Source: Goekera deserti (lineage in GTDB: Bacteria; Actinomycetota; Actinomycetes; Mycobacteriales; Geodermatophilaceae). From it: a DNA stretch of 64,000 bases. The stretch spans positions 62,001 to 126,000 of the forward strand of contig NZ_JAAGWK010000019.1 of the NCBI RefSeq assembly GCF_010685995.1, given 5' to 3'. The stretch's first letter is position 1, and each line of letters starts with the position of its first letter. The position numbers and the translations under genes are program-made. The notes under the pieces are model-generated. The model saw only the letters and a program-made list of their open reading frames with translations. It ran no database searches and was not told the DNA's origin. Below, in pieces: positions 46,711 to 64,000 of this stretch.

Positions 46711-48219
46711 TCAGTAGGCGCCCGATCCACGGACGACGGCGCCCACCGTCTTCCACATGATCATGAAGTCGAAGGCGAGCGACCAGTTCTCCACGTACCG
46801 GACGTCGATCCGCACCGAGTCGTCCCAGGAGAGGTCCGAGCGGCCACTGACCTGCCAGAGGCCGGTGAGGCCGGGCTTGACCAGGAAGCGACGGTGCATG
46901 TCGTCGCCGTAGCGCTCGACCTCGGCGGCCAGCGGCGGCCGCGGGCCCACCAGCGACATGCTCCCGCCCAGGATGTTGAACAGCTGGGGCAGCTCGTCGA
47001 GGGAGTAGCGGCGCAGCAGCTTGCCGACCCGGGTGACCCGGGGGTCCTCGCGCAGCTTGAACAGCACGCCGTTGCCGTCGTCCACCACGATGTCCTCGGT
47101 CATCTGCTCGGCGCCGACGACCATCGACCGGAACTTCAGCATCCGGAAGGGCCGGCCGTCGCGGCCGATCCGCTCCTGCTTGAAGAACACCGGGCCGCGG
47201 CTGCTCGCCTTCACCGCGAGGGCGATGACCAACAGCACCGGCAGCAGGGCCAGCAGCAGGCCCGAGCTGATCACGACGTCGGTGGAGGTCTTGGCCACCC
47301 GGCGCACACCGCGCAGCTCGGGACGCTCCATGTGCAGCAGGGGCAGGCCGCAGATCGGCCGGATGTTGACCCGCGGGCCGGCGATGTCGGTGACGGCCGG
47401 CGCGAGCAGCAGCTCGGCGTCGGTCGCCTCCAGGCCCCAGCCCAGCCGGCGCAGGGCCGCGGAGTCGAGCTCCGGGGAGGGCAGGACGGCGACCGTGTCG
47501 ACGTGGTGGGCCCGGACGACGTCGACGACGTCCCCGAGGTCACCGAGCACCGGCAGCCGGTCGAACAGTTCCGCCCCACCGGCCCCGCGCTGGCCCGACG
47601 GCAGGCAGCACCCGACCACCCGGTAGCCCTGGTAGGCCTCCCGGTCGATCTGGGCGTGCAGGTCCTGGACGCCGTTGCGGTGGCCGACGATGAGCAGCGT
47701 CTGCTGGTAGAGACCCTGGCCGCGCCGGCGGTGCAGCCAGCGGCGCTGCAGGAAGCGCTGCAGGAGGGTCAGCAGCGTGGCCAGCGGCAGCGCCACCACG
47801 ACCAGCCCGCGGGCGACCTCGAGCTTGAACGCCCAGCTCACGGTGCCGACCGCGGCGAGGATGCTCACCGCGGCGGAGAACACCCGGCGGAACTCCTCGG
47901 GACCGACCCACAGGAAGCGCTGCTCGTAGGTGCGGGCGACGAGCATGGCTGAGACCCACACGAACGGGAGGAGGCAGGCGATCAGCACGGCGGCGCGGTA
48001 GGCCGGGGCGTAGGACGTCTCGGCGGCAGACCCGAACCGCGCGACGTAACCGACGGTGGCGGCCACGATGCCGGCGACGAGGTCGCCGACCATGATCCGG
48101 CGGACGTACCGCGTCCGCCAGGACGGCGACGAGACGGTCCACGAGGCTGCCGGCGACGGCGCCGTCCCGACCTCCGGGGCCCGCGCACCCGCCGTTCCCT
48201 GCACACCCTGCGTGACCAT
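46711..48219 (-). CDS. Polyprenyl-phosphate sugar-1-phosphate transferase (WbaP/WcaJ-like, first of three)
   Basis: A 502-residue priming enzyme. Four N-terminal helices (about 45-150) and a soluble Rossmann-like domain precede the C-terminal catalytic domain (about 305-502): KQERIGRDGRPFRMLKFRSM, then [26 protein letters not shown] and [17 protein letters not shown]. It transfers a hexose-1-phosphate from a UDP-sugar to undecaprenyl phosphate to start a repeat unit. Its sequence is close to the enzyme at 61643-63154 over most of its length, suggesting a duplication. ATG 48219 is preceded by AGGAAGGTG. It lies 146 bp upstream of rfbF. Confidence 0.9.
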   Translation of the reverse strand: MVTQGVQGTAGARAPEVGTAPSPAASWTVSSPSWRTRYVRRIMVGDLVAGIVAATVGYVARFGSAAETSYAPAYRAAVLIACLLPFVWVSAMLVARTYEQRFLWVGPEEFRRVFSAAVSILAAVGTVSWAFKLEVARGLVVVALPLATLLTLLQRFLQRRWLHRRRGQGLYQQTLLIVGHRNGVQDLHAQIDREAYQGYRVVGCCLPSGQRGAGGAELFDRLPVLGDLGDVVDVVRAHHVDTVAVLPSPELDSAALRRLGWGLEATDAELLLAPAVTDIAGPRVNIRPICGLPLLHMERPELRGVRRVAKTSTDVVISSGLLLALLPVLLVIALAVKASSRGPVFFKQERIGRDGRPFRMLKFRSMVVGAEQMTEDIVVDDGNGVLFKLREDPRVTRVGKLLRRYSLDELPQLFNILGGSMSLVGPRPPLAAEVERYGDDMHRRFLVKPGLTGLWQVSGRSDLSWDDSVRIDVRYVENWSLAFDFMIMWKTVGAVVRGSGAY

Positions 48220-55028: not shown

Positions 55029-55232
55029 GCTGCTCGGTCCCTGGCGATGACGGGGGCCGGACGAGCGGTCCGGAGCGGACCCGGCGTCGACGAACCGTCA
55101 CCCGCAGCGATGCCGGCTCGCGGCACACGAGGAACCCTCGCCGTCGCCCGTGACCCGACCACGGTCCCCCGCCCGGGTGACCTGACGGCGGAACGACGAG
55201 CGGGTACCGACACGCACGGTCACCATGGACGG

Positions 55233-55817
55233 ATGCGCATCCTGCTCGTGTGCACCGGCAACCTCTGCCGGTCCCCGGTGGCCGAGCGGATGCTGGCCCA
55301 CTGGGCCCGAGACGCACTGGGCGACGACGCCGCCCGGGTGGCGCTGGACAGCGCCGGCACGGATGCCCCCCACGGACGGCCGATGGACGACGCCGCCGCG
55401 CACGCGCTGCTCGCGCTCGGCGGAGACCCGGTCGGCTTCACCTCCCGACGGCTGGTGGCCGGTGAGGCCATGGAGTTCGACCTGGTGCTCACGGCGACCC
55501 GCGAACACCGCAGCCGCGTGCTCTACCCGGCGCCCGGCGCGCTGCGGCGCACCTTCACCTTCGTCGAGGCCGCCGCCCTGCTGGCGGTGGCCGACTGCTC
55601 CGGCATCGGCGAGCTGCCGCTGGAGGCTCGTGCCCGCGAGTTGAGCGCTCGGCTCTCCGCAGCGCGGGCCCATCGGCGCAGCGGCGACGCCGACGACATC
55701 GCCGACCCGATCGGGCGGTCGCTGATGGTGCACCGGGCGGTCGCCGATCGGATCGCGGAGGCACTGTCGCCGCTGGCGACCGTGCTGTTCCAGCCCGAGC
55801 AGCTGCCGCCTCGCTGA
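55233..55817 (+). CDS. Low-molecular-weight protein-tyrosine phosphatase (paralogue 1)
   Basis: A 194-residue cytoplasmic phosphatase. The P-loop is VCTGNLCRSP, with nucleophile C7 and R13. The general acid is D158 in DDIADPIGRS. The protein is longer than the common 150-residue form because of a helical insertion around 115-150. It begins an apparent operon with a priming sugar transferase (161-bp gap) and an LCP ligase. In other bacteria such enzymes (Wzb, EpsP, PtpA) dephosphorylate BY-kinases or priming transferases and so tune polysaccharide output. Confidence 0.9.
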   Translation: MRILLVCTGNLCRSPVAERMLAHWARDALGDDAARVALDSAGTDAPHGRPMDDAAAHALLALGGDPVGFTSRRLVAGEAMEFDLVLTATREHRSRVLYPAPGALRRTFTFVEAAALLAVADCSGIGELPLEARARELSARLSAARAHRRSGDADDIADPIGRSLMVHRAVADRIAEALSPLATVLFQPEQLPPR

Positions 55818-55978
55818 CGGGGCCGTCGTCACCCGTCCGGGTGCACCCGACGCCGCCGGGCTCCAACCGGCACCGACGGGTGCCGACCTCCCGGGGGAAC
55901 GGCCACCCGCCGTCCGCGACGCGGTCCCTGCGGCCGTGTCGCCGACCGGCACCCGTGCCCTGACCAGCTGGAGAACCC

Positions 55979-57607
55979 GTGCCCGTCCCCCAAGCAGCCG
56001 ATCGGCCGGCCCCCCTGCCGGTCGCCGACCCGCTCGACGCCGAGCACCCCGAGCTGAGCAGCCCGCAGCCCACCGGCACACCGGGCTCCCCGGCGATGAA
56101 CCGGCGCTCGGCGGACCGCATGGTGGGCCACCCGGCCTACGTGCTGGCCTACGACCCGTTCACCGCCCGCCGCCGGCGACGCCCCGACTGGCTGGTCACG
56201 CTGCTGACCCGACTGGTCGCCGGTGACGCCCTGGCCGCCGCGGCCGGCACCTGGGCCGCCGCACGGGTGGCCGGCTCCCTGGGCGTCGACGTCGCTCCGG
56301 GACTGCCGCTGGTGCTCGCCGCGCTCTGGCCGCTGGTGCTGGGCCTCGCCGGCTCCTACGCCGACCGCCGGCTCGGCACCGGGCCGGAGGAGTACCGCCG
56401 CGTGCTCGTCGGCGCCGTGTCCACCCTTGCGGGGCTGGCCGTGGCGACCGCCGCACTGGGCCTCACCGGCATGCCCGTGCCCGCCGGCACCACCGCCGGG
56501 CTGCACCTGCTCGCGCTCGCGGTGGTCCCGCTGCTGACGGTGCTCACCCTGGTGCTGCGCACCGTGGCCCGGCGCAGCCTGCACCGGGCCCGGCGGGACG
56601 GCCGGATGAGCCGCCGGGTCGTCGTCGTCGGCCGTGAGGCCGGGCTGGCCGACCTGGCCACGCGGCTGCGCCGGGAGTCCGAGGCCGGCTGGCAGGTGAT
56701 CGGTGCCTGCATCCCCGACCCGTCGTCGGCCACCGTGCTGCCCGGTCTGGGGGTGCACGTGCTGGGCGGGCTGGACCACGTGCCGGCGGTGCTGGACAAC
56801 GTGCGCGCCGACGCCGTGATCGTCACCTCCACCAGCGACAGCGGCGCGGACTACGTACGCCGGCTCGCCTGGCAGCTGGAGGGCACCGACATCGAGCTGC
56901 TCGTGGTGCCGGGCCTGGTCGAGGTGGCGCCGGACCGGCTGACCATCCGCCCGACGCAGAGCCTGCCGCTGGTGCAGGTGCGCGAGCCCGTCTACCGGGG
57001 CGTGCGCCGGGTGGCCAAGTCGGTGTTCGACCGGACGATGGCGGCCGTGCTGCTGCTGCTGGGGTCGCCGTTGTTCCTCGCGATCGCCGTCGCCGTGCGG
57101 GCGACCAGCCCGGGGCCGGTGCTCTACCGTCAGCGACGCATCGGTACTCGCGGGAGGGCTTTCGACGTGCTCAAGTTCCGCAGCATGGTGGCCGACGCCG
57201 ATGCCCAGCTCGGCGTGCTCGCCACCCAGCAGCGGGACGCCGGCAACGCGGTGCTGTTCAAGATGCGCGACGACCCGCGGGTGACGCCGGTCGGGCGGCA
57301 CCTGCGACGGTTCTCGCTGGACGAGCTGCCGCAGCTGGTGAACGTGCTGCGCGGGGAGATGTCCCTGGTCGGTCCCCGGCCGCACCTGCCGGCCGAGATG
57401 GAGTTCTACGGCGACGCGGTGCAGAGACGGCTGCTGGTGAAGCCGGGTGTCACCGGCCTGTGGCAGGTCAGCGGGCGGTCCGACCTGTCCTGGGAGGAGT
57501 CGATCGAGCTGGACGTGCGGTACGTGGACAACTGGTCGCTCGGCCGGGACCTGGCCATCCTGTGGCGCACAGCGCGCGCCGTGCTCACGAGTTCCGGGGC
57601 GTACTGA
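55979..57607 (+). CDS. Polyprenyl-phosphate sugar-1-phosphate transferase (second of three)
   Basis: A 542-residue priming enzyme. A 70-residue Pro-rich cytoplasmic leader is followed by four helices (about 75-190), a Rossmann-like middle ([20 protein letters not shown]) and the catalytic domain (about 345-542) with [47 protein letters not shown] and [18 protein letters not shown]. It is more diverged than the other two paralogues, which are close to each other. GTG 55979 follows GGAGAA. Its stop is one base before the LCP start (TGAGATG), so priming and wall attachment appear coupled. Confidence 0.9.
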
Positions 57608-57608
57608 G

Positions 57609-58703
57609 ATGACGGCTCCCGAGCCGGGCCCGTCGAGCACGACGGAGGACAGCCCCTCGACGACGGTCGGGCGGGCACCCCGGTCCCGCCGCCGTCGAGT
57701 GCTCCGGCGGGTCCTGCTCACCGTCGGCAGCCTGTCGGTGGTGTTCGCACTGGTGGCCGGCGGCGGGCTGTGGTACCTGACGGACCGGTACGCCGGCAAC
57801 GTCGAACGGGTCGGTGACGTCTTCGCCGCGCTGGACCCGAGCACCCGACCGGCCCCCGCCTCACCACCGGCGTCCCAGCCGGCGCAGGCGGCACCGGTGA
57901 CCTTCCTGCTGGTGGGGTCGGACACCCGTGCCGACATCCGCGCCGGCCAGCTCCCGGACGCCCGATCCGACGCGATCATGATCGCCCGGCTGTCCGGCGA
58001 CCGGCGCCACGTGCAGGTGGTGTCCATCCCCCGTGACTCCTGGGTCGACATACCCGGGCACGGCAAGGACAAGATCAACGCCGCCTGGTCGATCGGCGGG
58101 CCGGCACTGCTGATCCAGACCGTCGAGCAGCTGACCGACGTGCGGATCGACCACTTCGCCGCCATCGACTTCGAGGGCCTGATCGAGATGACCGACGCCC
58201 TGGGCGGGGTGGACGTGACCGTGGCCGAGACGACCAGCTGGGGGCCCTACACGTTCACCGCCGGGGTCAACCACCTCGACGGCGACCAGGCCCGCTGGTA
58301 CGTCGGTCAGCGCTACGACCTGCCCGGCGGCGACTTCGACCGGGTGCGCCGCCAGCAGAACTACCTGCGCTCGATGTTCGGCAAGCTGTTCGCCCAGGGA
58401 GTGTTCACCTCACCCGGTCAGCTGGACTCCGTGCTGCTCGCCGTGACCGACGCGATCGCCGTCGACGACTCACTGGGCAACCGAGACCTGCTGACCTTGG
58501 CGGTGTCGGCCCGCGACCTGCGCCCCCAGGACATCGCGTTCTTCACCGCGCCCGTGCTGGGCACCGGCCGGGAGGGCAGAGCCAGCGTCGTCTACCTCGA
58601 CGACGTCAGCGGACGCCGGATGTGGGGTTACCTGCAGACCGACTCGCTGGGGCAGAACACCGCCGAGTTCGCCGACGAGGCCCTGCAGGAGACGCCGAAC
58701 TGA
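57609..58703 (+). CDS. LytR-CpsA-Psr family glycopolymer ligase
   Basis: A 364-residue protein: cytoplasmic basic stretch (APRSRRRRVLRR), one membrane helix (about 35-57), then the extracytoplasmic LCP domain. Key positions are FLLVGSDTRAD (98-109), RSDAIMIARL (119-128), VVSIPRDSWVDIPG with R142 and D143, DKINAAWSIGG, and DFDRVRRQQNYLRSM. LCP enzymes move lipid-linked glycopolymers onto peptidoglycan or arabinogalactan. Placement one base after a priming transferase argues that this cluster's polymer is attached to the wall. It is convergent with the cysteine-less phosphatase gene (3-bp gap). Confidence 0.92.
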   Translation: MTAPEPGPSSTTEDSPSTTVGRAPRSRRRRVLRRVLLTVGSLSVVFALVAGGGLWYLTDRYAGNVERVGDVFAALDPSTRPAPASPPASQPAQAAPVTFLLVGSDTRADIRAGQLPDARSDAIMIARLSGDRRHVQVVSIPRDSWVDIPGHGKDKINAAWSIGGPALLIQTVEQLTDVRIDHFAAIDFEGLIEMTDALGGVDVTVAETTSWGPYTFTAGVNHLDGDQARWYVGQRYDLPGGDFDRVRRQQNYLRSMFGKLFAQGVFTSPGQLDSVLLAVTDAIAVDDSLGNRDLLTLAVSARDLRPQDIAFFTAPVLGTGREGRASVVYLDDVSGRRMWGYLQTDSLGQNTAEFADEALQETPN

Positions 58704-58706
58704 CCC

Positions 58707-59321
58707 TCATGCGGCGGCCCCTGTGGACGTCCGCAGGATCGAGGCGTACTCCGGCAGCACGAGGGCGTGCAGCAGCGGCTGCAGGAGTACCGCGATCTCG
58801 CTGACGACCCGGTGGTGGGCAGCCACCGGCTCACCACTGGGATCGGACACGTCGTTCTCGCTCGAGGCGGCCCGCCGGACGCGGCGGGCATCGGCCAGCA
58901 TCATGACCACGGTTCGCGCGTGCTGCTCCCCGTTCAGGGCCAGAGGAGCGGTGATCGCGGGCAGCGCGGCGAGCAGGTCCGCGGCCTCCCGTAGCGTGAA
59001 GGTACGGCGCAGCCCGGTCGGGTTCAGCCGCAGCACGTCGTCTCGCAGCCGCTCGGTCATCGTGAGCACCAGGTCGGCCGGGCGCAGCAGGTCGGCGTCC
59101 AGCTGCTGGGCGACGAAGCCCGCACCGGTGCCGCCGAGTGCCCCGAGGGCACTGCGAGAGGCAGGGTGCATCGCTGACCCCACGTCGGCGCAGCTGCCGG
59201 CGCTGAGCACGTCGAGCGGACGGCCCCCCTCGCCGATCGCTGCGTCGAGGTACGACTGCGACAACCGCTCTGCGACGGCGGAGCGGCAGATGTTGCCTGT
59301 ACCGACGAAGAGGATGCGCAT
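58707..59321 (-). CDS. LMW tyrosine-phosphatase homologue lacking the nucleophilic cysteine (paralogue 2)
   Basis: A 204-residue protein with the full phosphatase fold, but the P-loop reads MRILFVGTGNICRSA. Gly7 stands where the other three paralogues have the catalytic Cys, while R13, C12 and the acid D160 (NDVSDPSGEP) remain. The codon is GGT at 59301-59303. Loss of the nucleophile normally abolishes catalysis but can leave phosphotyrosine binding, so this is probably a pseudophosphatase that traps or protects phosphorylated partners. It is divergent from the phosphatase-SGNH fusion (204-bp gap) and convergent with the LCP gene. The frame is otherwise intact, so it is not an obviously decaying gene. 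Confidence 0.88.
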   Translation of the reverse strand: MRILFVGTGNICRSAVAERLSQSYLDAAIGEGGRPLDVLSAGSCADVGSAMHPASRSALGALGGTGAGFVAQQLDADLLRPADLVLTMTERLRDDVLRLNPTGLRRTFTLREAADLLAALPAITAPLALNGEQHARTVVMMLADARRVRRAASSENDVSDPSGEPVAAHHRVVSEIAVLLQPLLHALVLPEYASILRTSTGAAA

Positions 59322-59525
59322 GACGGTGAGGGTAGGACGACGCTCACCCCAAGAACTGACAACGCGCGGCCGGATCCGGGCGGAGGTGGGGCACTGTCAC
59401 CTCTGTCCTCACCAGCCACACCCACCCGCCGGGTCACGCACATCCGGCGTGATCCGCGCTGATCCTCACCGGATCATGGTGCCGCGAGATCGGCGCAGGG
59501 CTGGTCGTCCCCCTACCGTGAGCGG

Positions 59526-60920
59526 ATGGACCTGCTGTTCGTCTGCACGGGGAACGCCTGCCGTTCCCCGCTGGCCGAGCGGCTGCTGCGCGGCTGGCAG
59601 CAGAGGTGGCCGACCGACGGTGACCTGCTGGAGGTGGTCAGCGCCGGGACCGGGGCGACCGCCGGCCGGCCGATGGACGCCGACTCCGCCCGCGCCCTCA
59701 CCGAGCTGGGCGGCGACGCCACCGATTTCGCTTCCCGCCGACTGGACGTCCGGGACGTCGCCCGGGCCGGCCTGGTGCTGACGATGACCCGCGATCAGCG
59801 CCGCACGGTGCTGGCCAGTGTGCCGATGGCCTTGAAGCGCACCTTCACCGTGCTGGAGGCGGCTGCACTGGTGCCGTTGGCCGACCTCTCCGGGCTCGAG
59901 CAGCTGCCTCTGCGCCAGCGCCCGCGCGCGCTGGCGCTGCGGCTGAGCGCCGCCCGGAGCCGCCGCTCGGAGAGCCGGGACGACGACGTGCCCGACCCGA
60001 TCGGCCGCCCGTTCGCCGTGCACCAGGAGGTGGCAGCGCAGATCGCCACGGCCCTGCGCGTGCTGGAGCGGGCGCTGCTGCAGCCGGGAGCCCATGCGCC
60101 GCCGATCGAGGGAGCGTCTGCCCAGCCGGTCACCGCCCTGCCCCGCCCGCTGGCCGAGCTCGTCGACGACCGCGCCGGGCGTGTCGGCTGGCGGGTGGGC
60201 GCCCTGGTGGCCGCGCTGGTCGTCCTGCTGATCGCCGGGACGACTCTGCTGACCCGGCCCTCGACGCCCACGTCCGCCGAGACGGCACCACGGACCACCG
60301 CGCCGGCACCGTCCGCTCCCCCGCTGTCGCTGCCGCTACCCCCCGACCCGCAGCTGATGGTCCTGGGCGACGCGACCACCCACGGTGTCGGTGCCCAGCC
60401 GCAGTCCGCCGGCTGGGCGTACGAGGTGGCGGTGATGCTGGGCTGGCGCACCGAGGTGCACGGCTACCCGGGATCGGGGTTCACCACGGCCACAGACATC
60501 AACCCGCGCACCTTCGCCCAGCGCATCGCCGACCTGGCCACCCGGCCGTTCGTGCCGAACGTGCTCGTGCTGCAGGGCGGCGCACTGGACGCCGGCGCCA
60601 CCGCCGCGGCGATCAGCGACGGCGTGCTGGCCACGGTCATGGCGGCCCGCGCCGCCTGGCCCGGCGTGCAGGTGGTGGTGCTGGGCATCGTGTCTCCCCA
60701 GCCGCTGGCGGACGAGCTGTCGGCAGTGAACGAGGCCGAGCGGCGCGGCGCCGAGGCGGCCGGGGTGCCCTTCGTCGACCCGGTCGCGGGCGGTTGGTTC
60801 ACCCGGGACAGCAGCTTCCGGTTCACCGCCAGCGACGGCGAGCACCTCAACAACCCCGGGCACGCGCGGGTGGCCGAGCTGTTCACCGCTGCGCTCACCC
60901 GGTTGGTCGCCGCCGGCTGA
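59526..60920 (+). CDS. LMW tyrosine phosphatase fused through a membrane helix to an SGNH-like domain (paralogue 3)
   Basis: A 464-residue three-part protein. Residues 1-190 are an intact phosphatase: C7 and R13 in VCTGNACRSP, acid D157 in VPDPIGRP. One helix (about 225-243) crosses the membrane, and a Thr/Pro linker leads to an SGNH/GDSL-type domain (about 275-464) on the outside. In that domain block I is VLGDATTHGVG (Ala283 for the nucleophilic Ser), block III is LQGGALDAG (Leu for the usual Asn), while D437 and H440 (SDGEHLNNPGH) are kept. The outer domain therefore looks like a binding rather than a hydrolytic module. I infer a one-helix receptor that could couple external polysaccharide state to dephosphorylation inside. 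Confidence 0.88.
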   Translation: MDLLFVCTGNACRSPLAERLLRGWQQRWPTDGDLLEVVSAGTGATAGRPMDADSARALTELGGDATDFASRRLDVRDVARAGLVLTMTRDQRRTVLASVPMALKRTFTVLEAAALVPLADLSGLEQLPLRQRPRALALRLSAARSRRSESRDDDVPDPIGRPFAVHQEVAAQIATALRVLERALLQPGAHAPPIEGASAQPVTALPRPLAELVDDRAGRVGWRVGALVAALVVLLIAGTTLLTRPSTPTSAETAPRTTAPAPSAPPLSLPLPPDPQLMVLGDATTHGVGAQPQSAGWAYEVAVMLGWRTEVHGYPGSGFTTATDINPRTFAQRIADLATRPFVPNVLVLQGGALDAGATAAAISDGVLATVMAARAAWPGVQVVVLGIVSPQPLADELSAVNEAERRGAEAAGVPFVDPVAGGWFTRDSSFRFTASDGEHLNNPGHARVAELFTAALTRLVAAG

Positions 60921-60924
60921 CCGG

Positions 60925-61584
60925 TCAGGACACCTGCACGAACGCGCCTGTGCCCGATGGCCCGGCCACCCACCTGCCGCCGCCGTGCAGGTCGACGAGG
61001 CGCGCCAGGATCGGCACCAGGGCAGCGACGACGGCGTCGCCCACCTGCTGCTGGACGTCGATCGGCTGGCCGATCGGGTCGCCGATGTCGTCCGCGGCGC
61101 CACCGGCGCGGCGGGCCCGCACGGCGGCCATCTGCCGCACCAGGGCCCGCGCACGATCGGCGAACGCGTCGCCCGGCAGGTCGACGTCGGGGTCGACGAG
61201 GGCGAGCAGGTCGGCGGCCTCGCGCAGGGTGAAGGTGCGGGCCAGCGCGCGGGGAGCCTCGGCCAGTGCAGTTCCGCGGTGCGCGCGGGTGAGGGTCAGC
61301 GTCAGGTCGGCGTCGACGACCATCTCCGGGGCCAGCTGCCGGGCCACGAAACCGGTGTGGTCACCGCCGAATCCGGCGAGCACCAGCGCGGTGTCGGGGT
61401 GCATGCCGCTGCCGACCACCGCGCCGGTGCCGGCACTGGACAGGTGCACCTGCTCGGCCGCGTCGCCGAGCGCGTCGTCCAGGTACGCCCGGCCGAGGCG
61501 CTCGGCCAGGGCCGAGCGGCAGATGTTGCCGGTGCAGACCACGAGCACGCGGAACACGGGGTCGGGCGACCAGTGACGAGCCAC
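60925..61584 (-). CDS. Low-molecular-weight protein-tyrosine phosphatase (paralogue 4)
   Basis: A 219-residue phosphatase with a 12-residue leader. The P-loop is VVCTGNICRSA (C17, R23) and the acid is D169 in DDIGDPIGQP, so the active site is complete. Residues 110-160 form the same insertion as in its paralogues. It lies 58 bp downstream of the third priming transferase, on the same strand as the BY-kinase, making a kinase, transferase, phosphatase set. It ends 4 bp from the convergent phosphatase-SGNH gene. GTG 61584 is used; a GTG-start nearer the core is absent. Confidence 0.9.
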   Translation of the reverse strand: MARHWSPDPVFRVLVVCTGNICRSALAERLGRAYLDDALGDAAEQVHLSSAGTGAVVGSGMHPDTALVLAGFGGDHTGFVARQLAPEMVVDADLTLTLTRAHRGTALAEAPRALARTFTLREAADLLALVDPDVDLPGDAFADRARALVRQMAAVRARRAGGAADDIGDPIGQPIDVQQQVGDAVVAALVPILARLVDLHGGGRWVAGPSGTGAFVQVS

Positions 61585-61642: not shown

Positions 61643-63154
61643 TCAGTAGGCCCCGCGGCCGCGGAAGACGGCACCCAGCGTCTTCCACATGATCATGAAG
61701 TCGAACATCAGCGACCAGTTCTCCACGTAGCGCACGTCGATGCGCACCGAATCGTCCCAGGAGAGGTCCGAGCGGCCGCTGACCTGCCAGAGGCCGGTGA
61801 TGCCCGGCTTGACCAGGAAGCGTCGGTGCATGTCGAAGCCGTAGCGCTCGACCTCCGAGGGCAGCGGCGGGCGCGGGCCGACCAGGGACATGTCGCCGCG
61901 CAGCACGTTGATCAGCTGCGGCAGCTCGTCGATCGAGTAGCGGCGCAGGAAGCCGCCCACCCGGGTGATCCGCGGGTCGTCACGCATCTTGAACAGCACA
62001 CCGTTGCCCTCGCTGTCGAGGCTCTCGACCATGCGGTCGGCGCCGTCGACCATGCTGCGGAACTTGAGCATGGAGAAGGTCTCGCCGTCGCGGCCGACCC
62101 GGGCCTGCCGGAAGAACACCGGCCCACGGCTGGTGACGCGGACGGCGAGCGCCGCTGCGGCCAGCACCAGCAGCATCAGGCCGAGTGCCGCTGCGGCGCC
62201 GCAACGGTCGACGGTCTCCTTGGTGAGCCGCCGGACGCCGCGGAGCTCGGGTCGCTCCATGTGCAGCAGCGGGAGCCCGCAGACGGGGCGGATGCGCACC
62301 CGGGTGCCGACGATCTCGGTGATCGCCGGGGCGAGCAGCAGCTCTGCCTCGGTCTGCTCCAGCTCCCAGCCGAGCCGGCGCAGCGCGGCCCCGTCCAGCT
62401 CGGGTGAGGGCAGCACGGCGACGGTGTCCACCTCGTAGCGCTGGACCACGTCGACGACGTCGTCCAGGTCGCCGAGCACGGGCAGCTCGTCGAACAGGAC
62501 CGAGTCCTTGCCGTGGGGGTGGCGGGGGATGCAGCAGCCGATGATCCGGTAGCCGTGATAGGCCTCCCGGTCGATCTGCTCGTGCAGGGCGGCGACACCG
62601 GCCCGGTGCCCGACGATGACGGCAGTCTGCTGGTAGTGCCCGTGGGCCCGCTGCCGGTGCAGCCACACGCGGTTGCCGCAGCGCTGCAGCAGGGTCAGCG
62701 CGGTGGCCAGCGGCAGCGCGACGATGATGAACCCGCGGGCGACTTCCAGCTTGAACGCCCAGGACAGGGTTCCGACGGTGGCCAGCATCAGTGCTGCGGC
62801 AAAGAACACCCGGCGGAACTCCTCGGGGCCGAGCCACAGGAAGCGCTCCTCGTAGGCGCGGGCCACCAGCATGCCGAGCAGCCAGACGACCGGCAGGACG
62901 ACCACGACGGCGAGTGACATGCGGTGGTCGGCCGGCGACACCTCCGGTCCGAAGCGCACCTGGTACCCGGCCGCGGCAGCGATCAGCGCCGCGATGACAT
63001 CACCGGCGGCGATGCGGCGCACGTAGGCCGGGCGCCAGGCGCGCCGCGCGGCGGTGCCTTCCCCGCGCAGCGGTACGGTGGGGAACCACCGCCACCGACG
63101 GGCCACGGCCACATCGGTACGAACACCCCCGTCACGCTGGCCGAGCACCGCCAC
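61643..63154 (-). CDS. Polyprenyl-phosphate sugar-1-phosphate transferase (third of three)
   Basis: A 503-residue priming enzyme with four N-terminal helices (about 45-150), a middle domain (QQTAVIVGHRAGVAALHEQI) and catalytic domain (about 305-503) with RQARVGRDGETFSMLKFRSM, YSIDELPQLINVLRGDMSLV and [18 protein letters not shown]. It shares long identical stretches with the enzyme at 46711 (for example SWAFKLEVARG and LLHMERPELRGVRR). GTG 63154 is preceded by GGGGGGA at a good distance; GTG 63199 would add 15 residues and lacks a site. It lies 159 bp downstream of the BY-kinase. BY-kinases phosphorylate such enzymes in other bacteria. Confidence 0.9.
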   Translation of the reverse strand: MAVLGQRDGGVRTDVAVARRWRWFPTVPLRGEGTAARRAWRPAYVRRIAAGDVIAALIAAAAGYQVRFGPEVSPADHRMSLAVVVVLPVVWLLGMLVARAYEERFLWLGPEEFRRVFFAAALMLATVGTLSWAFKLEVARGFIIVALPLATALTLLQRCGNRVWLHRQRAHGHYQQTAVIVGHRAGVAALHEQIDREAYHGYRIIGCCIPRHPHGKDSVLFDELPVLGDLDDVVDVVQRYEVDTVAVLPSPELDGAALRRLGWELEQTEAELLLAPAITEIVGTRVRIRPVCGLPLLHMERPELRGVRRLTKETVDRCGAAAALGLMLLVLAAAALAVRVTSRGPVFFRQARVGRDGETFSMLKFRSMVDGADRMVESLDSEGNGVLFKMRDDPRITRVGGFLRRYSIDELPQLINVLRGDMSLVGPRPPLPSEVERYGFDMHRRFLVKPGITGLWQVSGRSDLSWDDSVRIDVRYVENWSLMFDFMIMWKTLGAVFRGRGAY

Positions 63155-63313
63155 GCTGGTCCCCCCGGATCTCCCCCGGGCACGACTGACCCCCGGCACT
63201 GTGCTGTGGACTGCTCGGGGACCTCGTCGTCCGGCCGGCAGTCCGAACCTAGAGGAGGAAGGGCTCGGTCAACACCCCTACAGCTGACGCGAGGGGCTCA
63301 ACCGTCACACCTG

Positions 63314-64000
63314 TCACAACTTCGTGGTGGGCTGCCCCACAGGGGCGGTCGGCTGCGGGGCGGTGTCGTACCCGTAGTTGTAGCCGTACCCGTAGGCCGA
63401 GGAGATCTCCGCCTTGGGCGGCACGATGTTCAGGATGATGCCCAGGGTGCGGGCACCGACCCGGTCGAGCGTGGCCTTGGTCTGCTGCAGCTGCTCCTTG
63501 CGGGTGCTGCCGTACCGGATGGAGAGCACGACGCCGTCCACGAGCACGGCGAGGCCGCTGGCGTCGGCCACCGGCAGCAGCGGCGGGGCATCGATGAGGA
63601 CGAAGTCGTTCGTGCCGCGCAGGTCGTCGATGACCTTGAACATGTGGCTCGAGGCCAGCAGTTCACTGGGGTTCGGCGGGGTCGGGCCGGAGGCGAGGAC
63701 GCGCAGGTCGCCGTCGCCGTAGGGCTGCAGCACGTCGTCCAGCTCGGCGGTGCTGGCCAGGATGTTGGTCAGCCCGACGCCGCCCACCATGCCGAGGTAC
63801 CGGGTCACCCGGGGGCGGCGCAGGTCGCCCTCGACGAGCACCACCCGGCGCCCGGCCTCGGCCAGGGAGAGGGCGAGGTTCACGGCCACCGTGGTCTTGC
63901 CCTCCGACGGCACGGCGCTGGAGATCATGATGACCTTGGGTGGCTCGTCGACGTGCAGGAACTGCAGGTTGGTGCGCAGCTGACGGTAGGACTCGGCGAT
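63314..64000 (-). CDS. BY-type tyrosine autokinase (CpsD/CapB-like), C-terminal part
   Basis: The visible 228 residues are the kinase domain; the start and any Wzz-type N-terminus are beyond the window. The visible part opens with AESYRQLRTNLQF, the exact BY-kinase linker motif. Walker A is SSAVPSEGKTTVAVNLALSL, Walker A-prime VVLVEGDLRRP, and Walker B DFVLIDAPPLLPVAD. The C-terminus has a tyrosine cluster, SSAYGYGYNYGYD, the autophosphorylation site. It is therefore catalytically complete, in contrast to the degenerate homologue at 31681-33048. Together with the phosphatases it should control chain length and export of the polysaccharide. Confidence 0.93.
   Translation of the reverse strand: MAESYRQLRTNLQFLHVDEPPKVIMISSAVPSEGKTTVAVNLALSLAEAGRRVVLVEGDLRRPRVTRYLGMVGGVGLTNILASTAELDDVLQPYGDGDLRVLASGPTPPNPSELLASSHMFKVIDDLRGTNDFVLIDAPPLLPVADASGLAVLVDGVVLSIRYGSTRKEQLQQTKATLDRVGARTLGIILNIVPPKAEISSAYGYGYNYGYDTAPQPTAPVGQPTTKL

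Follow-up and report, generated by a model that had tools for sequence, protein, structure and literature searches.

LMW phosphatases are known mainly as free enzymes of the cytoplasm. How the kinase–phosphatase cycle of bacterial capsule and exopolysaccharide machinery is coupled to the external polymer and its state is, to our knowledge, poorly understood. In the case of Vibrio cholerae, the LMW phosphatase VpsU, a cytoplasmic protein of 166 aa with a substrate-stacking tyrosine at Y127, dephosphorylates the kinase VpsO (PMC7485978, available portion). A precedent for action on the polymer side of the membrane exists in the SGNH domains of OatA, PatB, and AlgX, which are located outside the cytoplasm and act on surface glycans (PMC9487903, available portion). 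In Myxococcus xanthus, EcpK is a pseudokinase scaffold of exopolysaccharide production that serves a co-polymerase/tyrosine-kinase system (PMC12004946, available portion).

The gene described here is found in a 64,000-nucleotide stretch of the Goekera deserti genome (the window) and encodes an LMW phosphatase, a membrane helix, and a degenerate SGNH domain in one chain. Like Wzb and VpsU, the product has the LMW phosphatase fold and the CX5R motif and is encoded in a locus with a BY-kinase; unlike VpsU, its phosphatase is joined to a helix and a domain predicted to lie outside the cell, and with 464 aa, a helix, and a second domain it departs from the usual layout of small, free cytoplasmic LMW phosphatases. 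The presumed placement of the SGNH domain outside the cytoplasm is shared with the acetyltransferases OatA, PatB, and AlgX/AlgJ of cell-wall and exopolysaccharide pathways. The fusion, however, lacks both the Ser and the Asn and is joined to a phosphatase, and Pfam detects no membrane acyltransferase domain in it, so it does not belong to the OatA type (AT3-SGNH). EcpK likewise consists of a dead enzyme part tied to exopolysaccharide machinery, but the EcpK pseudokinase is on the cytoplasmic side, whereas the dead part of the fusion would be the external SGNH domain. The membrane-anchored SGNH/GDSL proteins of the Geodermatophilaceae and of a second family in the same order (f8) have a homologous ectodomain and the same helix-linker-SGNH layout, but are encoded by separate genes, and the other three members of the nearest clade are catalytically complete. 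Judged from its sequence, the fusion is composed of known families and is a new variant by architecture: an LMW phosphatase that would cross the membrane once and carry a non-catalytic SGNH domain outside. No description of an LMW phosphatase–SGNH fusion was found in a literature search that had most subscription papers and bioRxiv preprints beyond its reach.

The fusion gene (59526–60920, + strand; defined by ORF, Pfam, and residue reading) is one open reading frame of 464 codons with an ATG start and zero internal stops, at exactly the position first noted. GC content by codon position is coding-like along the whole frame, including the helix and linker. Pfam places both LMWPc and Lipase_GDSL_2 above their cut-offs and finds nothing else in the protein. 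The order proposed in the first-pass annotation (phosphatase, one helix, SGNH-like domain) is supported by Pfam, hydropathy, and AlphaFold2, and this anatomy is nearly certain. The same annotation had allowed that the two domains might be separate genes in homologues and their join an assembly error. Separate genes are indeed what the homologues carry, and nothing points to an assembly error. In one relative (G096), for example, stop codons separate an LMW phosphatase gene from an SGNH gene arranged head to tail with it, and two such genes could be fused by a base error. An assembly or sequencing artefact that merged two neighbouring genes in this way would nevertheless have to leave one stop-free frame through both Pfam domains, the helix, and the linker, with continuous coding composition, and we give this explanation hardly any credence.

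The LMW phosphatase domain comprises residues 1–187 (59526–60086, + strand; Pfam LMWPc, model, and Foldseek), with the Pfam match (8.4e-16) covering residues 4–100. The P-loop C7-T-G-N-A-C-R13-S14 (CX5RS; 59544–59567, + strand), close to the N terminus, is intact by residue reading and alignment, as is D157-P158 (59994–59999, + strand), which we take to be the general-acid motif of LMW phosphatases. In a 12-row alignment of LMW phosphatases, R13, S14, and D157-P158 occupy invariant columns and C7 a nearly invariant one, which bears out the early reading of an intact enzyme from C7, R13, and D157. The P-loop of the form CX5R(S/T), the Asp-Pro motif, and the fold that define the family are all present. 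In VpsU-like enzymes the substrate-stacking tyrosine follows the Asp-Pro motif; in the fusion, unlike VpsU, D157-P158 is followed by Ile. AlphaFold2, supplied with an alignment of proteins from the window and related loci, models this domain with a pLDDT of 87–98 per 10-residue block, and Foldseek matches the model to LMW phosphatases, with 4egs, YwlE, and Wzb near the top (TMt 0.83–0.88). Arginine phosphatases (YwlE) are among its nearest structures in both the PDB and the Foldseek comparison. The domain is predicted to be an active phosphatase, and its substrate may be phosphotyrosine.

The membrane helix (residues 224–242; 60195–60251, + strand) coincides with the strongest hydrophobic stretch of the protein (mean hydropathy 2.58) and overlaps a single long helix modelled by AlphaFold2 at residues 210–240, in agreement with the one helix originally proposed. 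It is followed by a Pro/Thr/Ser-rich linker (residues 243–272; 60252–60341, + strand; identified by sequence and a pLDDT of <50). With this arrangement the phosphatase would be located inside the cell and the SGNH domain outside.

The SGNH/GDSL domain (residues 273–457; 60342–60896, + strand) is defined by Pfam and by Foldseek matches of a low-confidence model to SGNH hydrolases. The Lipase_GDSL_2 match (1.7e-14) extends over residues 279–448 and over positions 1–178 of the 178-position profile. In AlphaFold2 models of the 464-aa protein the C-terminal domain is poorly resolved, unlike the confident phosphatase domain, and the ectodomain folded alone is also of low confidence (mean pLDDT 53, pTM 0.58). 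From this low-confidence model, Foldseek recovers 12 PDB matches at E <= 0.001 with rmsd values of 7 to 10.5: nine platelet-activating-factor acetylhydrolase entries, a family 3 carbohydrate esterase, the GDSL-like 7bxd, and the putative hydrolase 4h08. A profile built from 20 SGNH domains of the family and compared with PDB sequences has the GDSL-like 7bxd and the esterase TesA at its head.

The catalytic blocks of the domain are only partly preserved in the alignment, as the first-pass annotation had read them (GDAT in place of GDS, GGALD in the Asn block, and Asp-x-x-His kept). Block I is G281-D-A283-T-T-H-G (60366–60386, + strand), with Ala for the catalytic Ser, and block III is Q350-G-G-A-L354-D (60573–60590, + strand), with Leu for Asn. 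Block V, D437-G-E-H440 (60834–60845, + strand), retains both Asp and His, and the Gly of block II is also kept (GYPGSGFT, compared with GAGGTGYT in the closest relative). Because the Ser and the Asn are replaced by A283 and L354, hydrolysis or transfer by the known SGNH route would not be expected. The retained D437-x-x-H440 could suggest that the domain is still an unusual esterase or acyltransferase that uses Thr284, Thr285, or another residue as its nucleophile, an alternative also offered in the first-pass annotation. Thr285, however, aligns with a Thr that 27 of the 35 Ser-containing family members share, which makes it an unconvincing nucleophile, and the block III Asn is gone as well. 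The Thr284/Thr285 proposal was rejected on this basis, and an enzyme working by any such other route is very improbable.

The surroundings of the fusion are those of an exopolysaccharide locus. On the same strand are LMWP_A, an LMW phosphatase with an intact P-loop (55047–55817, +; Pfam and alignment; the true start is probably near 55233), a priming sugar transferase (Bac_transf; 55979–57607, +; Pfam), and a LytR-CpsA-Psr (LCP) protein (57447–58703, + as listed, with a true start probably near 57606; Pfam). Directly upstream of the fusion and divergent from it is LMWP_B (58707–59321, −; Pfam, alignment, and tree), in which Gly replaces the nucleophile Cys (VGTGNICRS); it is predicted to be catalytically dead, a pseudo-phosphatase adjoining the fusion. 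Convergent with the fusion is LMWP_D (60925–61584, −; Pfam), whose P-loop reads as intact, followed by another priming sugar transferase (Bac_transf; 61643–63199, −; Pfam) and a BY-kinase with a Wzz domain and a Tyr-rich tail that continues past the window (63314–64000, −; Pfam and sequence). The complete kinase (L044, 3314–4750) has 478 aa with Wzz and AAA domains. Its SEGKT, GDLR, and DAPP stretches are presumably the Walker motifs, and its tail reads SSAYGYGYNYGYD. With a BY-kinase bearing a Tyr-rich tail, the locus has the composition of a BY-kinase/LMW phosphatase control system. Pfam on the window and the reading of the kinase also confirm the priming transferases, LCP ligase, and BY-kinase that had been named as neighbours.

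Four LMW phosphatase genes, counting the fusion, are found inside about 6.5 kb of this one polysaccharide locus (55047–61584). The window contains three priming sugar transferases of the Bac_transf family in all (46711–48219, 55979–57607, and 61643–63199). The same contig also encodes, about 15 kb downstream, a second membrane-anchored SGNH protein of this genome, which is catalytically complete (L044, 15775–16668, −).

Relatives of the ectodomain were found in 52 of 112 Geodermatophilaceae genomes, at 71 places; motifs were read for 66 of these, 64 of them outside the G. deserti genome. The best match outside that genome (38%, in G018) is a separate protein in a 276-aa open frame with a helix, a linker, and an SGNH domain that keeps GDS, GLND, and DGSH. 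Its locus also resembles that of the window, with identities of 68% for the LCP protein, 57% for LMWP_D, 70% for the transferase, and 61% for the BY-kinase. Two SGNH proteins from a genome of another family in the same order (G172) are separate, membrane-anchored, and retain all catalytic residues. In the SGNH tree, from which partial matches and one unrelated-frame match in L015 were left out, the SGNH domain of the window, the G018 protein, and the two G172 proteins form one group with support of 100/99. The missing Ser and Asn of the fusion are consequently losses derived within this group, in which the nearest relatives are catalytically complete. Membership of the window domain in a large Ser-less clade was considered and rejected, given its grouping with complete proteins at 100/99.

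The Ser is absent from 31 of the 66 SGNH places read, including that of the window. In one clade of 20 rows, block I reads YGD(G/W/R/F), the block V His is replaced by Ser, and 19 of the 20 retain SRND; further Ser-less groups are defined by GDAY/GHDD, by GDGT, by GDV, and by GDGY/GRAD. A single clade of all Ser-less rows was rejected (AU p 1e-6), and under parsimony the nucleophile state changes at least four times along the SGNH tree. When a Ser-less member was used as query, 44 of 296 genomes of the class were matched, G. deserti included. Outside the family, the Ser is kept in all 22 SGNH rows read, and no Ser-less form was found among them.

These relatives bear on the possibility that the fusion is in decay, that is, that a former polymer esterase or acyltransferase became inactive once a chance event had fused the genes and has since been drifting, so that only the phosphatase works. 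The completeness of the nearest SGNH relatives and the presence of the fusion in one genome only are consistent with such a history. The intact frame with coding-like composition throughout, the persistence of other Ser-less SGNH lineages in many species, and, as weak evidence from a 20-row alignment, the residues kept by the fusion at seven nearly invariant columns argue against it, and we consider decay improbable.

The fusion itself is rare. A search with the full-length protein matched 88 of the 112 family genomes at E <= 1e-15, and no second full-length, stop-free fusion was found in these 112 genomes when the best 14 candidates per genome were scored. None was found in 249 genomes of the order (1e-30; best 6 candidates per genome scored) or in 296 of the class (1e-30; best 5 candidates per genome scored); the three samples overlap, and all include G. 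deserti. In a plasmid collection, none of the 17 matching records covers 80% of the query, and no fusion was found. G. deserti is the sole member of its genus (g1) among the 112 family genomes, and the fusion is known from this one genome.

Its parts, in separate genes, have a broader distribution, and their gene neighbourhood gives the strongest of the new findings. In the Geodermatophilaceae, LMW phosphatase and membrane SGNH genes are repeatedly neighbours, and in the window they are one protein. An LMW phosphatase lies within 2 kb of 12 of the 64 SGNH places read outside G. deserti, compared with about 0.15 expected from a rough uniform estimate that ignores the clustering of such genes in polysaccharide loci. 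The SGNH protein is Ser-less in 11 of these 12 (in G002, G004, G008, G022, G027, G039, G075, G077, G083, G095, and G096), and a BY-kinase is found within 2 kb of at least 7 of the 11 (G004, G008, G022, G027, G039, G095, and G096). The LMW phosphatase and BY-kinase neighbour tables omit entries whose contigs were judged to have no SGNH row nearby. The twelfth case, a second SGNH protein of G083, keeps its triad and is 1.3 kb from a BY-kinase, and in G109 roughly 15 bp separate a Ser-less SGNH gene from a BY-kinase. Because the genes are oriented differently from case to case, the LMW phosphatase–SGNH pair is not one fixed operon. The pair nevertheless recurs within the family, and the fusion is its "Rosetta stone".

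The loss of the Ser is not tied to this adjacency, as 19 of the 52 SGNH places outside G. deserti that have no LMW phosphatase within 2 kb are also Ser-less. The raw association (Fisher p 7.6e-4) does not constitute independent evidence; once the tree is corrected for, the test of Ser loss against adjacency draws on 5 independent pairs and falls short of significance (median sign p 0.5). Adjacency itself changes five times on the SGNH tree, the window included. Outside the family, no LMW phosphatase or BY-kinase was found near an SGNH gene in 21 loci; for 19 of these, the flank extends to only about 1.5 kb.

The diversity of the LMW phosphatases was also surveyed. Of 45 rows, one (L050, 11490–11966) covers neither motif and is uncounted, and two of the other 44 derive from one gene, which is complete in L051 and present as a fragment in L042. 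The P-loop is broken in 4 of the 44 readable rows, namely LMWP_B and the proteins of G075, G077, and G083 (VCTTNVWGS). In these three genomes the broken phosphatase adjoins a Ser-less SGNH gene, forming dead pairs. The four broken phosphatases group at 98/94 in a tree from which two rows were left out as too short, although fast-evolving dead proteins may attract each other. The VCTTNVWGS proteins are encoded at L049 5230–5877, L052 5432–6052, and L053 4874–5515, each about 0.5 kb from the Ser-less SGNH gene.

These dead pairs are a poor fit to simple phosphatase regulation. They are more in keeping with a scaffold, in which the helix and the dead SGNH domain would tether the phosphatase to the co-polymerase/polymerase complex, with membrane concentration as the whole effect and no sensing of a ligand. 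EcpK, as a pseudokinase scaffold of an exopolysaccharide co-polymerase, provides a precedent (PMC12004946, available portion). On the other hand, all tested catalytic residues are kept in the phosphatase of the fusion, and a whole SGNH domain probably exceeds what a tether needs. A pure scaffold is possible but on the doubtful side.

A second protein with a comparable layout is found in the same class but in another family. In G432, an LMW phosphatase, a helix, and DUF4012 are fused in an open frame of 604 aa that is truncated where the contig ends (L116, 7132–8943), with an LMWPc match of 1.2e-20, a hydrophobic stretch at residues 241–259, and a DUF4012 match of 1.2e-44; the genome is 82% complete and 4% contaminated. 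The two fusions share the LMW phosphatase, the helix, and a further domain, and differ in the kind of ectodomain. A glycosyltransferase cluster on a Streptomyces plasmid has a DUF4012 gene immediately next to an LMW phosphatase gene. Two kinds of ectodomain, SGNH in the window and its relatives and DUF4012 in G432 and the plasmid, can thus be seen both to neighbour and to join an LMW phosphatase.

We tentatively favour a receptor-like LMW phosphatase of the exopolysaccharide machinery whose non-catalytic ectodomain binds a glycan or a partner; the reservation concerns this mechanism and not the anatomy. The preference for a receptor, with the scaffold as its main rival, follows from the precedents of VpsU and VpsO, of the EcpK pseudoenzyme, and of external SGNH domains acting on glycans. 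The single-pass protein would consist of a cytoplasmic LMW tyrosine phosphatase, one helix, a flexible linker, and an external domain of SGNH fold that is incapable of catalysis by the SGNH mechanism, and it would work as a receptor-type phosphatase on the exopolysaccharide kinase. The BY-kinase of the locus is the natural candidate substrate; three other LMW phosphatase genes share the locus with the fusion and this kinase. Glycan binding by a dead SGNH domain is plausible because the external SGNH domains of OatA, PatB, and AlgX act on surface glycans. The ligand would probably be the polymer that the locus produces, or a repeat of it in acylated or lipid-linked form, and the outer part of the polysaccharide co-polymerase could be an alternative target. 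Acyl-sugar binding, as first suggested, is a guess from the fold. In either case, ligand binding could be signalled across the membrane to the phosphatase.

The first-pass annotation had proposed a new type of receptor phosphatase. This fits the finding that the same parts are neighbours in relatives, mostly with a Ser-less SGNH protein and often beside a BY-kinase, and the existence of a second fusion of an LMW phosphatase, a helix, and an ectodomain; as a mechanism it stays at the tentative level given above. A phosphatase and an outside domain in one chain, with the same parts adjacent in relatives, are a candidate link between the kinase–phosphatase cycle and the polymer. Such a protein would give bacteria a receptor-like layout for the LMW phosphatase family, in a setting where the dead versions of both SGNH domains and LMW phosphatases may have a role. 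A broader proposal, which is conceivable yet rather unlikely to hold in full, is an outside-in tyrosine-phosphorylation switch on exopolysaccharide synthesis in the Geodermatophilaceae. A dead, anchored SGNH protein would read the polymer and work with a neighbouring LMW phosphatase and BY-kinase, the window would hold the fused, single-chain receptor form, and receptors would have arisen at least twice (SGNH and DUF4012).

Several Ser-less SGNH proteins have distinctive features of their own. L024, L031, and L082 belong to a separate Ser-less clade with GDAY, GHDD, and DGTY blocks, in which Ser, Asn, and His are all replaced. Two near-identical Ser-less genes of the GDW type are located 4.4 kb apart in G024 (L077, 4776–5708 and 10155–11078), a genome with zero LMW phosphatase matches at E <= 1e-15 and, among the matches listed, zero BY-kinases at E <= 1e-30. 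Standalone SGNH proteins (L015, L044, L049, L050, L051, and L059) share a short N-terminal motif, (F/L)ERPP, immediately ahead of the helix; it is common to catalytically complete and Ser-less members and is absent from the window fusion.
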